64,000 bases of DNA from Phycisphaerae bacterium. Lineage in GTDB: Bacteria; Planctomycetota; Phycisphaerae; UBA1845; Fen-1342. A program made the translations under genes and the position numbers. Below, piece by piece: positions 1,445 through 52,520 of the stretch. Each line of letters begins with the position of its first letter. Positions within the stretch are counted from its first letter, which is position 1. Location of the stretch: positions 1-64,000 of the forward strand of contig JAJVHV010000014.1 of the NCBI GenBank assembly GCA_022072445.1. The letters run 5' to 3'. The notes under the pieces are model-generated. The model saw only the letters and a program-made list of their open reading frames with translations. It was not told the DNA's origin and searched no databases.

Positions 1445-3667
1445 CTACATCACGGCGCCGATGGCGCGCTCTTGCGCGCCCTGGTCGCGGGCCGCTGGTT
1501 GCATGAAGCACAGTGCGACGCCAGCCAGGGCGACGGCACCGGCGGCGGCGATCCAGATCGGCCCCGGGAGGGTCATGGGCAAGGATCCCGGATCGGCGAG
1601 CGTCTGCCAGCCCAGCCAGTCCTTGAAGGCGCCGATGCCCTCACTCGTGGCGGTCAGCCCATTGTGCATGGCGTGCGCCACGATCGCCGGCCAGATGGAG
1701 CCAAAGCGCAGGACCAGTACGCCGAAAAGCAGCCCCAGCACGGCGGTGGGGATGATCCGATAGACGGATTGGTGGAAGAGCGCGAAAGCCAGCGCGACGA
1801 GAATCACGCCGCCGACGGCTCCCGCGCCGGCGCGTGCGCCGCTCAGCACGAATCCGCGGAAGAACAGTTCTTCGCAGATCGCCGGCACGAGCGCGAGCAG
1901 GGCGATCTGCGTGAGCAGGTCGGTGCGGTTGAGAAACTCAAGGTCGCTCATGAGCTGCTGAAGAACTTCGGGGTTCATCGGCAGAAAGTGCTGCTGAAGG
2001 ACCAGCCAGGCTTTCGCAAGAATCCAGGTCGACGCGCCGAGGCAGAGGCCGGCCGCCCAACCGCGCCCGCCGGGGGCGCGCAACGCGAGCGCACCGGCCA
2101 CGTTGACGCGCGCGTAGAGCGCGACGATCACCGGCACAACGACGAACAGCAGGATCATCCACAGCGCGACCGCGTAGAGGAACAGCACCGTGCCGCGCAC
2201 GCCGGCGGTCTGGCCCAGCGCGTTCTGGATGAAGAAATTCAACGGATAGGCGATGGCCAGCGTCAGCAGCGACTGCGACGCCGTCGGTGTCCAGCGCGGG
2301 CGGAAGAACCGCCGCCGGAAGAGCGCCCGGATCGAGGCATTGTCGGCGAACAGGACGGCCTCCTGTCCGAAGAGGCGGGCGGCGACGGCGACGGCGGCGG
2401 TGGCGTAGAGGCCGGTCGAGAGGGTGACCCAGATGATCCACTCGACCTCGAAACGGCCGACGAACAGCTCGCGCGTCATCAGCACGATGTTGGCCACCGG
2501 CATGATCAGCAGCGGGCCTTCCAGCCGCGTGCCGGGAATCACGCTGATCATGGCCGGCATCATGGCCGCCATGATCACCGGCATGACGTAGTTCTGCGCT
2601 TCCTTGAAGCTGCGGGCGAAGCTCGCCACGGCCAGCAGGATGGCGCCGAACATGATTGCCAGCGGGGCGAGGGCGGCGGCGATCCAGGGCAGCGCGCCCA
2701 GCGGCAGCGTCAGGTTCCAACTGGTGGTGAGCAGCTTGCCGATCCCACCCAGATACATCGTCCCGCCGAACGCCAGCAGATTCAGCGCGGCGCTCAGCAA
2801 GCCGATCAGCGTGACGACGATGAATTTTCCGGTGATCAGGTCGATGGGCGGGACGGGCGCGACCATGAGCGTTTCGAGCGTGCCGCGCTCGCGTTCGCCG
2901 GCCGTCAGGTCGATCGCCGGATAAACCGTCCCGGTGATGGTCAGGATAATGAGGATGGGCGGGATGATCAGGCCGGCCAGCCAGCCGTCGCGCTCTTCCT
3001 GCGTGGCGACGTCGCGTGCGACGACCGCGATGGGCTGTATCACCTGCGGGCGGATTCCGAGCCGCGCCAGGCGGTCGGCGACGAGCCGGGCGGTCGCCCG
3101 CTGGAGAATGGCCTCGATGCCCGCGGCGGCGACCTCGCTGCGGATGTCACGCTCCTTGAGCACCAGATCGACGACGACAGCAGCGTCGTCCTCCGCGGTC
3201 GGCAGCCCGCCGCTCAGCACGATGCCGACGTGCATGTCGCCGGCGACGACGGCGGCGGCGACGTCGCCGACCACGACGATCTCGTATTCGGGCGGCGATT
3301 CGCGGACGTTGAGCGACGGGCGGCCGGCCGGCGGCGGCGCCGACGGCGCGGTTGTGCCGGAAGCGTGCGGTCCCGACGCGTCCGCTGAGCCCTGAGCGGC
3401 CAGCTCCGGCGGCCGGCGGGTCGGGTCGGTGTCGATCAGGCGGCGGAGCCAGCGCCGCGCGGGCTCGTCTGCGACAGCGACGCGGTATGTGGCGCGGGTG
3501 AGCTGGTGGGTCTGAAACTCCAGCGCCAGCAGCGACGCGAGGATCAGGCCCGGGTAGAGCACCATCGGCACGACCACCATCGCGACCAGCGTTCGCCGGT
3601 CGCGCAGCGTGTCGGACAGCTCCTTGCGCCAGATGGCGTTAATGCGCGAAAACCGGCTCATTCTCAC
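1445..3667 (-). CDS. ABC-2 type permease fused to a CPBP intramembrane protease domain
   Basis: This is a membrane protein of 740 aa with two parts. The N-terminal ~400 residues look like a NatB-type ABC permease: cytoplasmic start, a first TM segment (VAMVVVPMVLYPGLIL), a long extracytoplasmic loop with a low-complexity Gly/Pro/Ser stretch, then a cluster of TM segments after the ERERGTLETLMVAPV motif. The C-terminal third carries the CPBP (CAAX/bacteriocin-processing) motif EELFFRG, with further TM segments and an H-containing FALFHQ segment. The start is GTG at 3667 or ATG at 3661. It overlaps the end of the upstream ATPase gene by 29 bp, so the two are probably translationally coupled and work as one exporter. 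The substrate cannot be told from sequence. Confidence 0.85.
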   Translation of the reverse strand: MRMSRFSRINAIWRKELSDTLRDRRTLVAMVVVPMVLYPGLILASLLALEFQTHQLTRATYRVAVADEPARRWLRRLIDTDPTRRPPELAAQGSADASGPHASGTTAPSAPPPAGRPSLNVRESPPEYEIVVVGDVAAAVVAGDMHVGIVLSGGLPTAEDDAAVVVDLVLKERDIRSEVAAAGIEAILQRATARLVADRLARLGIRPQVIQPIAVVARDVATQEERDGWLAGLIIPPILIILTITGTVYPAIDLTAGERERGTLETLMVAPVPPIDLITGKFIVVTLIGLLSAALNLLAFGGTMYLGGIGKLLTTSWNLTLPLGALPWIAAALAPLAIMFGAILLAVASFARSFKEAQNYVMPVIMAAMMPAMISVIPGTRLEGPLLIMPVANIVLMTRELFVGRFEVEWIIWVTLSTGLYATAAVAVAARLFGQEAVLFADNASIRALFRRRFFRPRWTPTASQSLLTLAIAYPLNFFIQNALGQTAGVRGTVLFLYAVALWMILLFVVVPVIVALYARVNVAGALALRAPGGRGWAAGLCLGASTWILAKAWLVLQQHFLPMNPEVLQQLMSDLEFLNRTDLLTQIALLALVPAICEELFFRGFVLSGARAGAGAVGGVILVALAFALFHQSVYRIIPTAVLGLLFGVLVLRFGSIWPAIVAHAMHNGLTATSEGIGAFKDWLGWQTLADPGSLPMTLPGPIWIAAAGAVALAGVALCFMQPAARDQGAQERAIGAVM

Positions 3668-46880: not shown

Positions 46881-48137
46881 ATGACCGCAACCGCCTCATT
46901 TCAGCCCACCACCCTTCAACCCGCCGACTTCGACTCCGACCTCTGGACCCTCAACTTCGGCCCACAGCACCCCGCCACCCACACCACGCTCCACCTCGTC
47001 CTCCAGCTCGACGGCGAACGCGTCGTCGCCTGCACGCCGCACATCGGCTATCTGCACAGCGGCTTCGAGAAGCTCGCCGAGCACCTGAATTACAACCAGT
47101 ACGTGGTCGTCACCGACCGCATGAACTACGTCTCGCCCATTGCCAACAACATCGCCTGGCACACGGCCGTGGAGAGGCTGTTCGGCCTCGAGCTGACCCC
47201 GCGCTGCAAGGCCATCCGCACCATCTGCGCCGAACTCGCCCGAATCCAGGATCATCTGCTCTGCGTCGGAGCCTCCGCCCTCGACCTCGGCGCCCTTACG
47301 GCCTTCCTCTGGGGCTTCAACGAGCGCGAGTTCATCTACGACATCCTTGAAGACTTGTGCGGGGCACGCTTCACGGTCAGCTACACGCGCGTCGGCGGCG
47401 TCATGCAGGACGCCCGGCCCGGCTGGACCGACAAGGTGCTCAGCTTCATTCGCAACCGCCTGCCCAAGGCGCTCGCCGACGTCGAAACGCTGCTGCTGCG
47501 CAATCGCATCTTCATCGAACGCACCAAAGGCATCGGCGTCATCAGCCATGACGACGCCATCAGTTGGTCGCTCACCGGCCCGCTCGCCCGCGCCAGCGGC
47601 GTTCGCCGCGACCTGCGCAAGGACGAGCCCTATCTCTGCTACGCCGAGAACTGGGACGGCAAGGGTGCTCCCGCCGTGCAGTTCAAGGTGCCGATCGCCA
47701 CGGGCGGCGACGTGCTGGCCCGCTTCATGGTCCGCATGGAGGAGATGCGCCAGTCGGTTGGCATCATCGAACAGGTCATCAGGATGATGCCCGACGGTCC
47801 CGTCAACGTCGGCCCCGGCGAAAAGCTCACCCTGCCCGACAAGCGCGAAATCTACTTCTCGATCGAGGGCCTCATCCACCACTTCGAGAAGATCATGACC
47901 AACCGCGGCTTCCAGCCCCCGCTGGGCGAAGCCTACGGGGCGAACGAGACGGCGAACGGCGAGCTGGGCTTTTACCTGGTGAGCGCCGGCGGCAACTGCG
48001 CCTACCGCGCCCGCTGCCGCCCGCCGAGCTTCATCAACTACCAGACGTTCCCGAAACTGATCGTCGGCCACCAGATCAGCGACGTGGTCGCCGTCCTCGG
48101 CAGCCTCAACATCATCGCCGCCGAATTGGATCGATAG
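46881..48137 (+). CDS. nuoD: NADH-quinone oxidoreductase subunit D (49-kDa subunit)
   Basis: This protein of about 418 aa is part of complex I's peripheral arm near the quinone site. It starts at ATG 46881 and has LNFGPQHPATHTTLHLVLQLDGE at the start, the HxxRGxEK region variant GYLHSGFEKLAEH, VTDRMNYVSPI, and the final SFINYQTFPKLIVGHQISDVVAVLGSLN then IIAAELDR. It is complete, although no other nuo gene lies nearby. The last 234 bp plus 10 bp downstream are repeated exactly at 51092-51335. Confidence 0.96.
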   Translation: MTATASFQPTTLQPADFDSDLWTLNFGPQHPATHTTLHLVLQLDGERVVACTPHIGYLHSGFEKLAEHLNYNQYVVVTDRMNYVSPIANNIAWHTAVERLFGLELTPRCKAIRTICAELARIQDHLLCVGASALDLGALTAFLWGFNEREFIYDILEDLCGARFTVSYTRVGGVMQDARPGWTDKVLSFIRNRLPKALADVETLLLRNRIFIERTKGIGVISHDDAISWSLTGPLARASGVRRDLRKDEPYLCYAENWDGKGAPAVQFKVPIATGGDVLARFMVRMEEMRQSVGIIEQVIRMMPDGPVNVGPGEKLTLPDKREIYFSIEGLIHHFEKIMTNRGFQPPLGEAYGANETANGELGFYLVSAGGNCAYRARCRPPSFINYQTFPKLIVGHQISDVVAVLGSLNIIAAELDR

Positions 48138-48147
48138 TGCGGCGCGA
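47904..48147 (+). repeat. Left copy of a 244-bp perfect direct repeat (3' end of nuoD)
   Basis: The sequence from 47904 to 48147 is identical by eye to 51092-51335; both copies are exactly 244 bp and diverge immediately outside. It covers the last 78 codons of nuoD, including its stop, and 10 bp beyond. Confidence 0.97.
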
Positions 48148-48198
48148 AGAGAGCCTCAGGGACCTGCCGCCGCGCCGGAAAAAACTCTCAGATTGGAA

Positions 48199-48226
48199 TT
48201 GACAAATATCGGGGGGGGGGGAGAAT
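48199..48226 (+). promoter_or_regulatory. Promoter-like sequence with an 11-G tract in the spacer
   Basis: TTGACA (48199-48204, perfect -35) is followed by aatatc, 11 G residues (48211-48221), then agaatag. With GAGAAT (48221-48226) as -10 the spacer is 16 bp, and the last G of the tract belongs to the -10. The tract could equally act as a purine-rich ribosome site for ATG 48235 (11-12 bases downstream). Slippage of the tract would change spacing in either model. Confidence 0.55.
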
Positions 48227-48234
48227 AGTCATTC

Positions 48235-49239
48235 ATGTTCCGCGGGCGAATCACGTCTCGGTTCGTCGGTTGCGCTATCCTGGCCGCACTGGCCGGTGGA
48301 TTAGGTTACTGGCGTGCCACGGAGCGAGCATCTTGTCCCGGCTCCGTCGATGAAACTTCGGGCCCAGAACCTGGTTTTCAGCCGGGAATTGTCGATGTTG
48401 GCAGAGTGCCGTGGGGGAGCGAGTTGGCTGGCGACCTCGTCTTCGTCAATGCCGGCAGATCGTCGCTTACCATTCGCGCTATCGTGACGGATTGTGGCTG
48501 CACCGCATTGGATGAGAGCGCGGTCATCGGTCAGACGCTGGAGCCGGGTGACTCGCTGCCCATACGGTTCACCGTCCGCGCCGGAACCAACCCGGGAAAC
48601 AAGCGAACCAGGGTCACGCTGCATACGACCAGCGGGCGCATGTATCGTGCTGACGTGCTGGTTGACGTCGTGGGGACCTGGAGCATTGAACCTGCGTCCG
48701 TTGATTTTGGAACCGTCGAGATCGACGGCGCCGAAACGCACGAATCGATACTCACGTTTAGTTCTCAGGTGGACCAAGTACAAGCCGTCGAAGCCGAGGA
48801 CGCCCCGTGGCTTACGGTGCGCCGGACACCCCGGGGTTCGGACGGTGTCGCGATCCTGGTTGCCCTCGACGCATGCAACCTCCGACCGGGAGCGCACGTG
48901 GCCGCGTTGACGGTGCGGACGAATTGCCGGCTGAAACCCGATGCTCTGATTCCCGTTCGGGTGGTCGTTGTCCCATCGCTTCGGCCGTCCAGTTACCGCG
49001 TTGGCTTGGTCGCTTCCGATCCCAAGCTCGTCCATTTCTTTGATTCACACGACCGTCCGGTCCAGATTGCCGAAGTACACTGTGATGACGGGCGGATCGT
49101 CTCGACAATAGTGCCGCCAAACGGGGTCGAGCTTCGTAATCCGGAAGACAGCGACTTCGACATGGATATTCCAATTGAGATCACTTCTCATGGAGGTCAT
49201 CGATGCACAATCCACGCGTGCAGGTTTCCTGGCCAGTAG
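48235..49239 (+). CDS. DUF1573-type exported protein
   Basis: This 334-aa protein has an N-terminal signal or anchor (FVGCAILAALAGGLGYW). The first mature domain (FQPGIVDVGRVPWGSELAGDLVFVNAG, then VTDCGCTALDES) is the DUF1573 Ig-like fold with its conserved DCGC motif. A second similar domain follows (FGTVEIDGAETHESILTFSS), and a C-terminal beta-rich region of unclear type. It probably acts outside the cytoplasm. Base composition is lower in G+C than nuoD and the ribosomal genes. It is the first of three genes lying between the two copies of the nuoD 3' end. Confidence 0.8.
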   Translation: MFRGRITSRFVGCAILAALAGGLGYWRATERASCPGSVDETSGPEPGFQPGIVDVGRVPWGSELAGDLVFVNAGRSSLTIRAIVTDCGCTALDESAVIGQTLEPGDSLPIRFTVRAGTNPGNKRTRVTLHTTSGRMYRADVLVDVVGTWSIEPASVDFGTVEIDGAETHESILTFSSQVDQVQAVEAEDAPWLTVRRTPRGSDGVAILVALDACNLRPGAHVAALTVRTNCRLKPDALIPVRVVVVPSLRPSSYRVGLVASDPKLVHFFDSHDRPVQIAEVHCDDGRIVSTIVPPNGVELRNPEDSDFDMDIPIEITSHGGHRCTIHACRFPGQ

Positions 49240-49640
49240 CGTCTCGCTGTGTGGCCGCGGCAACTGTGGTCTCCCTCATTGTCGGTCTGGCGTACTACGC
49301 GGGCGTCGCGTCCGCCTCCGATCCTTGCCGGCGCTTTCTCTCCGGGACCGTGATCGCGTGCAGCGGATGTACTGACTATTTCAACTGTGGGAACTGTAAC
49401 GGGTCCATTTGCGCAGCGAGCATCTACAGCGTCTGCGCGAAATCAACGCCATCCGTACCTGGAGACACACACAAGAACTCGGAGGGGCCGGTGCCCTGTT
49501 CGATACAGTACTGGTGCAACGCGGTCGGTGCGACCTGTACCGGCAGCGGTCCGTGCACGGCGTCGGGTATCTTCTTTTCACAGGACGAAGATACGGAGGT
49601 GACAAGTAACCCGAACGGACCGTGTGACGCCCCGCACTGA
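49203..49640 (+). CDS. Cysteine-rich exported peptide
   Basis: This 145-aa protein has a TM-like signal (CVAAATVVSLIVGLAYYAG) ending GVASA before SDPC. The mature part of about 105 residues holds 12 cysteines (for example CSGC, CGNC, then C at regular intervals), consistent with disulfide bonding outside the cell. No family is recognised. The ATG at 49203 overlaps the 3' end of the DUF1573 gene by 37 bp; it has GGAGG at 49192-49196, seven bases upstream. Co-expression with its neighbours is likely. Confidence 0.75.
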   Translation: MHNPRVQVSWPVASRCVAAATVVSLIVGLAYYAGVASASDPCRRFLSGTVIACSGCTDYFNCGNCNGSICAASIYSVCAKSTPSVPGDTHKNSEGPVPCSIQYWCNAVGATCTGSGPCTASGIFFSQDEDTEVTSNPNGPCDAPH

Positions 49641-49677
49641 GTTCCGCTGAGGTCTGACCGCCGAGAGGAGCCTGACC

Positions 49678-51069
49678 ATGACCCGAATGTTTGTGTGCAG
49701 CGTTGCGCTCTGGACGACAGCGTCGTACCCGGCAGAACAGGCGTCTGAGCGCTGCCCGGAGCAGCTTGTGAAGCTGGAGCGTGAACGAGCCGCCTGGTCC
49801 AGGTTTTCCGTCGAATGGACGGATACGGTGCCGGGCAGACCCATCCCGCGCCGTCACACCACGAGTCGGTACGCCGGCGATGACGCGATCATGGTCATTC
49901 ATGGCGACGACGAAGGCACCGTCGGCCGAGATCGAAACGGCAACATCCGCGAGTGTGATTTTGGGCCGGATGTGACGCTTGCCCGCCCGGGTGAGTTTTG
50001 GCATGTCCCCGCGCGTGGGTCCGTCGATCACTTCGCACGTCAGACCAAGGGTGGTCTGGTTTACGATTTGCGCACGCTGGGGTTGACATATGTGAATTCG
50101 CTCAACAACGTCTCGGAAGCGCTGCGGACCGACGACGTGGCGATGGCATCACCGAGAAAGTACGAGGTCTCGCGCGATGGGGACATCGAGACAGTCTCGG
50201 CCATCACCGATTACGGGAAGATCACATGGCGACTGGATTCGGTGAGGGGCGGGCTTCCCGTGCGCGTTACGCTCGAGCGCGATGGCCGCGTGATCCACGA
50301 GGCGCGCAGCAGCCTGCGGCGCTTTGGAGACGTCTGGTTTCCCGATCGCGTCGAGTTCTACAGCGGCGGACGCGAGCCTATTCAGATCGTTGAAGTGCAT
50401 TCTATCGCGATCAACCAGCCCGACATGAAAACTGGTTTCAAGCCAGAGGATGTCGGGCTGGATTGCGGAACGTACGTTATGAGCTACGATGACAAGGGTT
50501 TTGTCGGGCCACGACAGTGGACAGGTGCGTCTCTCGTCCCGCCGGAGGAGTTCGATCGACGACTGAAGGCTGGCGAACTGCAGTGGGGCGCGTCGTTCCT
50601 GGCGAAGCGCGCCAGTCAGGCGCCCAGTTCTGCGAGGGGTGCTGCCGGTACGTCAGGTTCGTCAACCAGCGTGGCGCAACCCGATCAACTCGGTGCCGCC
50701 AGCCCCAATCGGCGACTGACCGAGTGGGAAGAGTACACAGCGGAATTCGTCCGACGTCATGCGCTGCTCGATGAGCAAGCGCAGAAGGCGTGGCAGGTCT
50801 GCCGACGGTGTCAAACCGATGCCCGGGAGTACTTGGCGGCCCACCGAGCGGAGTTGAAGACCATCGAGACTAGAATCGCCGCCCTGCGTTCGACCGACCC
50901 TTCAGAGGCCCGCGAAGGGGCCCTGGTTGGAGCGGACTCAGATTACACCCGGCTGCTCAAGAGACTGGACGACATCTTCGAAACACGCCTGAAACCCGAC
51001 TTGGAAAAGATTCCGACGCGTGCCCAGCGGCATGCGGTCGATGAAGCCCAAAAGTCGCACGCACCCTGA
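49678..51069 (+). CDS. Exported protein of unknown function, LolA/outer-membrane-lipoprotein-like body
   Basis: This 463-aa protein has a short hydrophobic N-terminus (MFVCSVALWTTA) as probable signal. A beta-rich region of about 270 residues follows (DIETVSAITDYGKITWRLDS ... LPVRVTLERDGRVIHEARSS, FGDVWFPDRVEFYSGG), reminiscent of the folded-sheet fold of LolA-like carriers; the resemblance is weak. A low-complexity Ser/Ala linker (~305-330) precedes an alpha-helical C-terminus with a CRRC pair. A GAGAGGAG ribosome site lies upstream. It is the third gene of the module between the nuoD repeats. Confidence 0.7.
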   Translation: MTRMFVCSVALWTTASYPAEQASERCPEQLVKLERERAAWSRFSVEWTDTVPGRPIPRRHTTSRYAGDDAIMVIHGDDEGTVGRDRNGNIRECDFGPDVTLARPGEFWHVPARGSVDHFARQTKGGLVYDLRTLGLTYVNSLNNVSEALRTDDVAMASPRKYEVSRDGDIETVSAITDYGKITWRLDSVRGGLPVRVTLERDGRVIHEARSSLRRFGDVWFPDRVEFYSGGREPIQIVEVHSIAINQPDMKTGFKPEDVGLDCGTYVMSYDDKGFVGPRQWTGASLVPPEEFDRRLKAGELQWGASFLAKRASQAPSSARGAAGTSGSSTSVAQPDQLGAASPNRRLTEWEEYTAEFVRRHALLDEQAQKAWQVCRRCQTDAREYLAAHRAELKTIETRIAALRSTDPSEAREGALVGADSDYTRLLKRLDDIFETRLKPDLEKIPTRAQRHAVDEAQKSHAP

Positions 51070-51091
51070 TTTGTTCACGAAGTTAAGGCAA

Positions 51092-51335
51092 CGCGGCTTC
51101 CAGCCCCCGCTGGGCGAAGCCTACGGGGCGAACGAGACGGCGAACGGCGAGCTGGGCTTTTACCTGGTGAGCGCCGGCGGCAACTGCGCCTACCGCGCCC
51201 GCTGCCGCCCGCCGAGCTTCATCAACTACCAGACGTTCCCGAAACTGATCGTCGGCCACCAGATCAGCGACGTGGTCGCCGTCCTCGGCAGCCTCAACAT
51301 CATCGCCGCCGAATTGGATCGATAGTGCGGCGCGA
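51092..51335 (+). pseudogene. nuoD: Duplicated 3' fragment of nuoD (right copy of the 244-bp direct repeat)
   Basis: This fragment encodes the last 77 residues and stop of NuoD and no more. The open frame is continuous from ATG 51020, but its first 24 codons are the out-of-frame end of the preceding gene. With perfect identity over 244 bp the duplication is recent or under gene conversion. It is probably non-functional. Confidence 0.9.
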
Positions 51336-51344
51336 CGGTCGGGC

Positions 51345-52520
51345 GGGTGGCGGTCGATAGAGTGGGGCGGGTGGCGGCCGCGACTGCGATCCGAGCCGCA
51401 CCCGCACAATCCGAGCCGCGGCCCCCGCCTGTCCGGGCCGCGGCCCCGCCTGTCCGAGCCGCGACCGCACAATCGGAGCCGCGACCGCACAATCGGAGCC
51501 GCGACCGTAAGGGAGCGGTTTCTTAGCCCCGCGCGAGAATCCCTCGACCGCAGCTCGCACTCCCGCTCGGCCAGGAAACCGCTTGCTGACGCGCGCGGCT
51601 CGGTTCCAGCGCCGCGCGATCCGAGCCCCGACCCCGCATGTCCGAGCCCCGACCGTAAGGGAGGGGTTTCTTAGCCCCGCGCGAGAATCCCTCGACCGCA
51701 GCTCGCACTCCCGCTCGGCCTGGAAACCGCTTGCTGACGCGCGCGGCTCGGTTCCAGCGCCCGCGCGATCCGAGCCCCGACCCCGCATGTCCGAGCCCCG
51801 ACCGTAAGGGAGGGGTTTCTTAGCCCCGCGCGAGAATCCCTCGACCGCAGCTCGCACTCCCGCTCGGCCTGGAAACCGCTTGCTGACGCGCGCGGCTCGG
51901 TTCCAGCGCCGCACAATCCGAGCCGGGACCGCACGATCCGAGCCGCGACCGTAAGGGAGCGGTTTCTTAGCCCCGCGCGAGAATCCCTCGACCGGAGCTC
52001 GCACTCCCGCTCGGCCAGGAAACCGCTTGCTAACGCGCGCGGCTCGGTTCCAGCACCCGCACAATCCGAGCCGCGGCCCCGCCTGTCCGAGCCGCGACCG
52101 CACAATCGGAGCCGCGCCCGTAAGGAAGCGGTTTCTTAGCCCCGCGCGAGAATCCCTCGACCGCAGCTCGCACTCCCGCCCGGCCAGGAAACCGCTTGCT
52201 GACGCGCGCGGCTCGGTTCCCTCGATCCGAGCCGCGACCGTCAGGGAGCGGTTTCTTAGCCCCGCGCGAGAATCCCTCGACCGCAGCTCGCACTCCCGCC
52301 CGGCCAGGAAACCGCTTGCTGACGCGCGCGGCTCGGTTCCAGCGCCGCACAATCCGAGCCGCGTCCCCGCCTGTCCGAACCGCGACCGTAAGGGAGCGGT
52401 TTCTTAGTCCCGCGCGAGAATCCCTCGACCGCAGCTCGCACTCCCGCTCGGCCAGGAAACCGCTTGCTAACGCGCGCGGCTCGGTTCCAGACAATCCGAG
52501 CCGCGACCCCGCATGTGATC
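51345..52520. repeat. Third array of the dispersed inverted-repeat element, seven units
   Basis: Cores lie near 51537, 51685, 51833, 51981, 52150, 52270 and 52418, in the same orientation as the array at 1 kb. Spacing is 148 bp for the first three intervals, then 169, 120 and 148. The arms again are gaaaccgctt(g)ctgacgcgcgcggctcgg and the near-reverse arm ccgagccgcgaccgtaagggagcggtttc. Inter-unit sequence differs (repeated ccgcacaatccgagccg, cccgcctgtccgagccg). No credible gene exists between 51336 and 52559. Confidence 0.9.

Follow-up and report, generated by a model that had tools for sequence, protein, structure and literature searches.

The window analysed here, a stretch of 64,000 nucleotides from a Phycisphaerae bacterium (GCA_022072445.1, contig JAJVHV010000014.1, positions 1 to 64,000), contains an intact nuoD gene, the 3' end of which is present a second time further downstream. 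A repeat search of the window revealed the direct repeat 47904-48147 / 51092-51335, with its copies lying 3188 nt apart from start to start and comprising the last 77 sense codons of nuoD, the TAG stop codon (48135-48137) and 10 bp beyond. Aligned base by base the copies are identical at 244 of 244 positions, which agrees with the perfect 244-bp duplication of the nuoD 3' end described in the initial annotation, and with one gapped base the repeat extends to 248/247 nt at 99.6% identity. As no longer exact non-tandem (dispersed) direct repeat occurs in the 827,629 bp of this genome that were sampled, an origin by chance is excluded; a third copy was not found in the genome. The left copy (R1) completes nuoD, and the right copy (R2) is a tail fragment without the 5' part of the gene. 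The locus is composed of the following features, given with window coordinates:

46881..48137, + strand: nuoD, intact, presumed host gene of an insertion (Complex1_49kDa, E 5e-99; NuoD models; full-length relatives 71-79% identical)
47904..48147, + strand: R1, near copy of the nuoD 3' end, completing nuoD (exact 244/244 repeat)
48148..51091, + strand: X, the cargo, 2944 bp (GC 0.609; deviant tetranucleotide usage)
48199..48230, + strand: candidate promoter of gene A, TTGACA, a run of 11 G, then AATAGT; possible slippage switch (from the sequence and a pattern search of the same genome)
48235..49239, + strand: gene A, exported DUF1573 protein, 334 aa (Pfam DUF1573, E 4e-9)
49203..49640, + strand: gene B, 145 aa, small and rich in Cys, signal-like segment at the N-terminus (open reading frame; relatives adjoin gene C in the genome G008)
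49678..51069, + strand: gene C, 463 aa, multicopy family, fold without known match (12 matches in the same genome)
51092..51335, + strand: R2, far copy of the nuoD 3' end (exact repeat), by analogy with empty sites at lepA and nuoF probably the displaced native tail
51336..52520, + strand: Y, flank beyond R2, an array of short interspersed repeats (repeat families D1-D4; copies elsewhere in the genome)

The DNA between the copies had initially been annotated as distinct and of lower G+C content, with three genes and neither an integrase nor a transposase, and this was confirmed. With a GC content of 0.609, compared with 0.669 +/- 0.024 in genome windows, X falls into the lowest 1.8% of windows, and in tetranucleotide usage it belongs to the most deviant 2.9%. 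Its GC3 values amount to 0.65-0.70 versus 0.88-0.90 in gpsA and nuoD, and loci of the gene C family elsewhere lie in between (0.77-0.83). Three open reading frames were recovered, and neither these nor searches with Pfam and other domain models revealed an integrase or transposase in X. Genes B and C matched nothing in Pfam, NCBIfam, PHROGs or PADLOC, gene C had no match among solved structures, and PADLOC returned no hit for the cargo A-B-C, restriction-modification genes included.

The view that the module is unique, or a special mobile unit in itself, did not hold. Gene C is multicopy, its family being represented by 12 matches in this genome and by matches in 80 of the 101 genomes searched; a small Cys-rich B gene precedes C at many loci of the family, the B-C pair recurs at several of them, and A, B and C occur together also in the genome G019. 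Flanking gene-tail repeats were absent from other C-family loci in 20 sampled regions, and the duplication is thus not a property carried by the module. A-B-C belongs to a resident family, and what sets this copy apart is its placement in the genome.

Among 231 genomes with a match to the nuoD tail, only this one has the tail duplicated adjoining nuoD, and the second matches listed for other genomes lie elsewhere, away from the gene. Conserved gene order around nuoD, sought in order to establish the ancestral arrangement, was not found in 99 loci of relatives. A hairpin across the R1-X junction was considered as proof of a native junction and dismissed, being no more stable than in shuffled sequences. 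The complete identity of the two copies means that the event was recent, which fits a source within the same species, or that homogenisation continues; it also deprives the copies of any allele signal, so that donor and local origin are inseparable at nuoD itself. Intergenic arrays of interspersed repeats with a period of about 150 bp occur in the window at 51370-52520 and 117-1345 and on other contigs, with many diverged copies across the genome.

Ten further cases with the order tail, cargo, tail were recovered by a repeat scan and by gene-tail searches, at lepA in eight genomes and at nuoF in two. The unbiased scan looked for low-copy direct repeats on either side of 0.3-15 kb of DNA, in 2.04 Mb of the present genome and in about 1.7 Mb from relatives, and gave two more loci of this anatomy: lepA on contig C8 of the same genome (R of 252 bp, 249 identical, cargo VapBC) and nuoF in L129, a locus of a relative (R of 78 bp, cargo a ParE/RelE-type toxin and its partner). 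With the last 109 aa of LepA as query, 348 of 397 genomes of the class yielded a match, and eight of the 348 possess a second tail copy, always downstream and on the same strand. In the seven genomes beyond our own this copy is C-terminal-only and lies 0.6-2.6 kb downstream; at the DNA level homology reaches as far as the stop codon, the alignments ending at -6 to 0 bp, the cargo measures 576-2627 bp, and R begins 118-290 bp before the stop and has that same length. The nuoF search added one more locus, L191, with the order R1, VapBC, R2, native gene, R3 and second VapB. Each analogue consists of an intact gene, a tail R1 reaching to the stop codon, a cargo of about 0.6-2.6 kb and a second tail R2, with R ranging from 78 to 290 bp across lepA and nuoF. 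Searches started from C-terminal queries could detect only repeats that include gene ends; repeats running past the stop codon, which would show in the DNA alignments of these cases, were not present there, and the nuoD, C8 lepA and L129 cases were detected by scans in which gene tails did not serve as queries.

In L191 (14842-16991) three consecutive nuoF tails are found, the first followed by VapBC and the third by another VapB, and the unit seems to have been inserted or amplified twice. On contig C8 of the present genome a HicB-like antitoxin reading frame directly follows the second lepA tail (from 23729 on), and the region downstream of lepA may therefore have received more than one module. 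Recent direct repeats were also encountered at exported dockerin-like genes of this genome (C1:125996-127604, 98.5%; C4:84684-86736, 99.5%) and were left out as cases of the same anatomy, since in them the repeated 3' end precedes the complete gene.

What was inserted can be read from congeneric empty sites. The genome G042 matches G016 through lepA to the stop codon and then continues unbroken in the second tail and downstream DNA of G016, the cargo being absent; the same relation exists between G325 and G293 and between G097 and G082 at lepA, and between L123 and L191 at nuoF. In these three lepA cases and one nuoF case R2 and the downstream DNA are consequently native and R1 and the cargo were inserted, which shows that a unit of gene tail and cargo entered the end of a gene and that a long stretch of the target was thereby duplicated. 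Codon differences between R1 and R2, summed over the eight lepA cases, comprise 60 synonymous and 27 nonsynonymous ones, whereas under neutrality about 65 of the 87 would be expected to be nonsynonymous; the synonymous bias is weaker in G060 and G391 than in the other cases. As the divergence is mainly synonymous, the copies diverged as functional alleles and the insert brought its own gene end: R1 at lepA derives from another functional allele. The proposal of the initial annotation that an element had integrated at a gene's 3' end and rebuilt it, or that a module had been captured by recombination, is supported by the ten analogues, while for nuoD the empty site is supplied by analogy, and the polarity of the locus, R2 being native and R1 with X inserted, is inferred from lepA and nuoF.

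The cargos comprise VapBC (at lepA and nuoF), ParE/RelE, two MNT nucleotidyltransferases whose HEPN partners were identified by eye, DUF2442 together with a zinc-finger protein, a pair resembling MqsRA, likewise identified by eye, the toxin of which has no Pfam match, and Septu (PtuA and PtuB by PADLOC); exported proteins are encoded in G016, in G391 and at nuoD. In 10 of 11 cases the cargo is oriented like its host gene (p 0.006 against a coin toss; orientation as judged from the reading frames), which is consistent with read-through transcription.

The nuoD locus is probably the result of an insertion with long target duplication, the likely route being a single homologous crossover of circular DNA made up of tail and cargo. 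A unit of the nuoD 3' end (R1) and A-B-C would have entered inside the nuoD 3' end; the incoming tail would complete the gene, and the displaced native tail (R2) would be left behind the cargo. The foreign-looking composition of X speaks in favour of this. The unit may have come, as a circle of tail and cargo, from this species or a relative of it, and may have been integrated by one RecA-type crossover within the shared tail, for which no integrase would be needed. Recombination between R1 and R2 would be expected to excise the same circle and restore a clean nuoD, or amplify the cargo in tandem, and since circle and clean gene would be regenerated, the unit could cycle. Cargo that is costly to lose, such as toxin-antitoxin or defence genes, would persist best in so unstable a frame, and this may account for the frequent occurrence of addiction and defence cargo. 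Two copies of a shared segment of variable length flank the inserts, as single-crossover integration of circular DNA requires, and in E. coli circularised donors from which part of the homologous segment was missing gave rise, by a single crossover, to partial target duplications of 109-950 bp (PMC3240628). These duplications, together with the variable length of R and the lack of integrases, point to a circle and a single crossover. The cargo edge lies 0 bp from the stop codon for lepA and nuoF and at +10 for nuoD, and the chance of one such edge at a stop codon is about 0.015; this counts against random circle formation, which does not predict such edges.

It could alternatively be assumed that A-B-C already stood 3' of nuoD and that a copy of the 244-bp tail was placed 2.9 kb downstream while a break was being repaired or through a template switch, with nothing inserted. 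For a single locus one such event would suffice, the copies are identical and situated on one contig, and the repeats at the dockerin genes on C1 and C4 represent other short direct duplications in this genome. However, the empty sites of the analogues reveal inserted cargo, the lepA tails differ in the manner of functional alleles and not of a source and its decaying copy, and X is compositionally unusual, so that a local templated duplication is considered unlikely. The edge at the stop codon, on the other hand, would be better explained than by random circles if the locus were what remains of, or a satellite to, an element that depends on an integrase, targets the 3' ends of genes and carries a replacement tail, its integrase being lost or acting from elsewhere; islands of the icd and prfC type carry replacement tails that end at the stop codon. 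Against this stand the absence of an integrase or other recombinase from every cargo read, a cargo size down to 0.58 kb and R lengths of 78-290 bp without a shared core, the left edges of R at lepA displaying no common motif by eye. The variable R lengths, the dissimilar left edges and the missing integrases likewise give no support to the attachment-site-like recombination product for which a test was suggested initially. Tails of lepA in phages, plasmids and viral contigs, examined as carriers of attachment sites, aligned over almost their entire length at about 58-73% identity, and no planctomycete carrier was recognisable among them. Dependence on an integrase is accordingly regarded as decidedly improbable. 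An assembly artefact, be it a wrong join, a collapsed repeat, or a path that merges the chromosome with an extrachromosomal circle, might be suspected, as the genome consists of 50 contigs, the relatives are mostly metagenome-assembled, and an exact 244-bp repeat forms a loop in the assembly graph behind which an insertion, an array or a circle may equally stand. Such a loop nevertheless requires both junctions in the reads, and the same anatomy with diverged copies of R recurs in ten other cases from independent assemblies, which leaves very little room for this explanation.

In its anatomy, insertion with long target duplication as proposed here resembles the elements that target the 3' ends of icd (e14) and prfC (SXT), supply a replacement end and displace the native end to the far side of the insert. 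In contrast to these, the present loci have neither an integrase gene nor a fixed attachment core at one edge (X and analogues; left edges at lepA by eye), R is variable in length, and the cargo can be very short. A composite transposon was rejected, because the flanking repeats are nuoD coding sequence and not IS copies. Closest is the known insertion with long target duplication (ILTD; Nobusato et al. 2000; Furuta et al. 2010), described in the accounts covered here for restriction-modification genes, mainly of Helicobacter (PMC3031569, PMC3874152, PMC1643837, PMC4978471), where addiction-type cargo is situated between long direct target duplications of variable length (order of 100 bp), without a transposase and with an empty site in relatives. 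The same traits were found here, namely a long direct target duplication (244 bp at nuoD, 78-290 bp at lepA and nuoF), an insert free of transposase and integrase, and a single-copy empty site in close relatives at the analogous loci (three lepA pairs, one nuoF pair). The cargo differs, consisting of toxin-antitoxin genes, Septu and exported modules at the tails of lepA, nuoF and nuoD, and the edge at the stop codon and the allele divergence between the copies differ as well. While the ILTD anatomy is known, cargo, targets and stop-codon edge therefore look new within the open-licence literature. Single-crossover integration of circular donors and homology-facilitated illegitimate recombination share the one-sided homology and the partial target duplication of variable length (PMC3240628, PMC5361080), but were laboratory or effector-locus events, whereas natural insertions at housekeeping gene ends with an edge at the stop codon are at issue here. 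Effector and Rhs arrays, in which sequential insertion pushes old gene ends downstream, are comparable to the three nuoF tails of L191 (PMC5361080); there a toxin gains a new domain, while here the host is a conserved housekeeping gene with an unchanged product.

These loci bear on how toxin-antitoxin and small defence modules spread without mobility genes: small blocks, often of such genes, were repeatedly inserted at housekeeping genes of related bacteria without a recombinase gene of their own. The loci offer a concrete anatomy of gene tail, cargo and gene tail, a recurrent site at the lepA 3' end and relatives with empty sites, and the allele test at lepA argues for transfer over local duplication. 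The model predicts an excised circle, tandem amplification, RecA dependence and transfer by homology alone. Only tentatively, and with doubt outweighing confidence, might a general integrase-free traffic of cassettes in Phycisphaerae be proposed, in which circular units of a housekeeping gene tail and cargo (toxin-antitoxin, defence or exported modules) would be excised and re-integrated across species boundaries, with homologous recombination acting at the ends of conserved genes such as lepA, nuoF and nuoD, the target being rebuilt each time and the cargo edge fixed at the stop.

A separate observation concerns the start of the module. In several genomes TTGACA-like -35 boxes with a run of 8-12 G are found just upstream of C-family modules: in this genome, besides the site in the window (48199-48230), at C17:44424-44445 and C8:199136-199156 (both on the reverse strand), and in relatives at C2:185071 and C5:24189 (the latter reverse) of G015 and at C110:15890 of G010. 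Of the four distinct TTGACA-N-G8 sites in this genome, three are situated upstream of C-family modules, against a background of only about 13 runs of at least eight G or C per Mb. Judging from the sequence, the G-run spacers look like candidate phase-variable promoters governed by spacer length. In a gene A homologue of G019 (locus L084, contig C131) the beginning of the coding sequence contains, immediately after the signal-like segment, a run of 15 C (3470-3484), which may constitute a translational phase switch.
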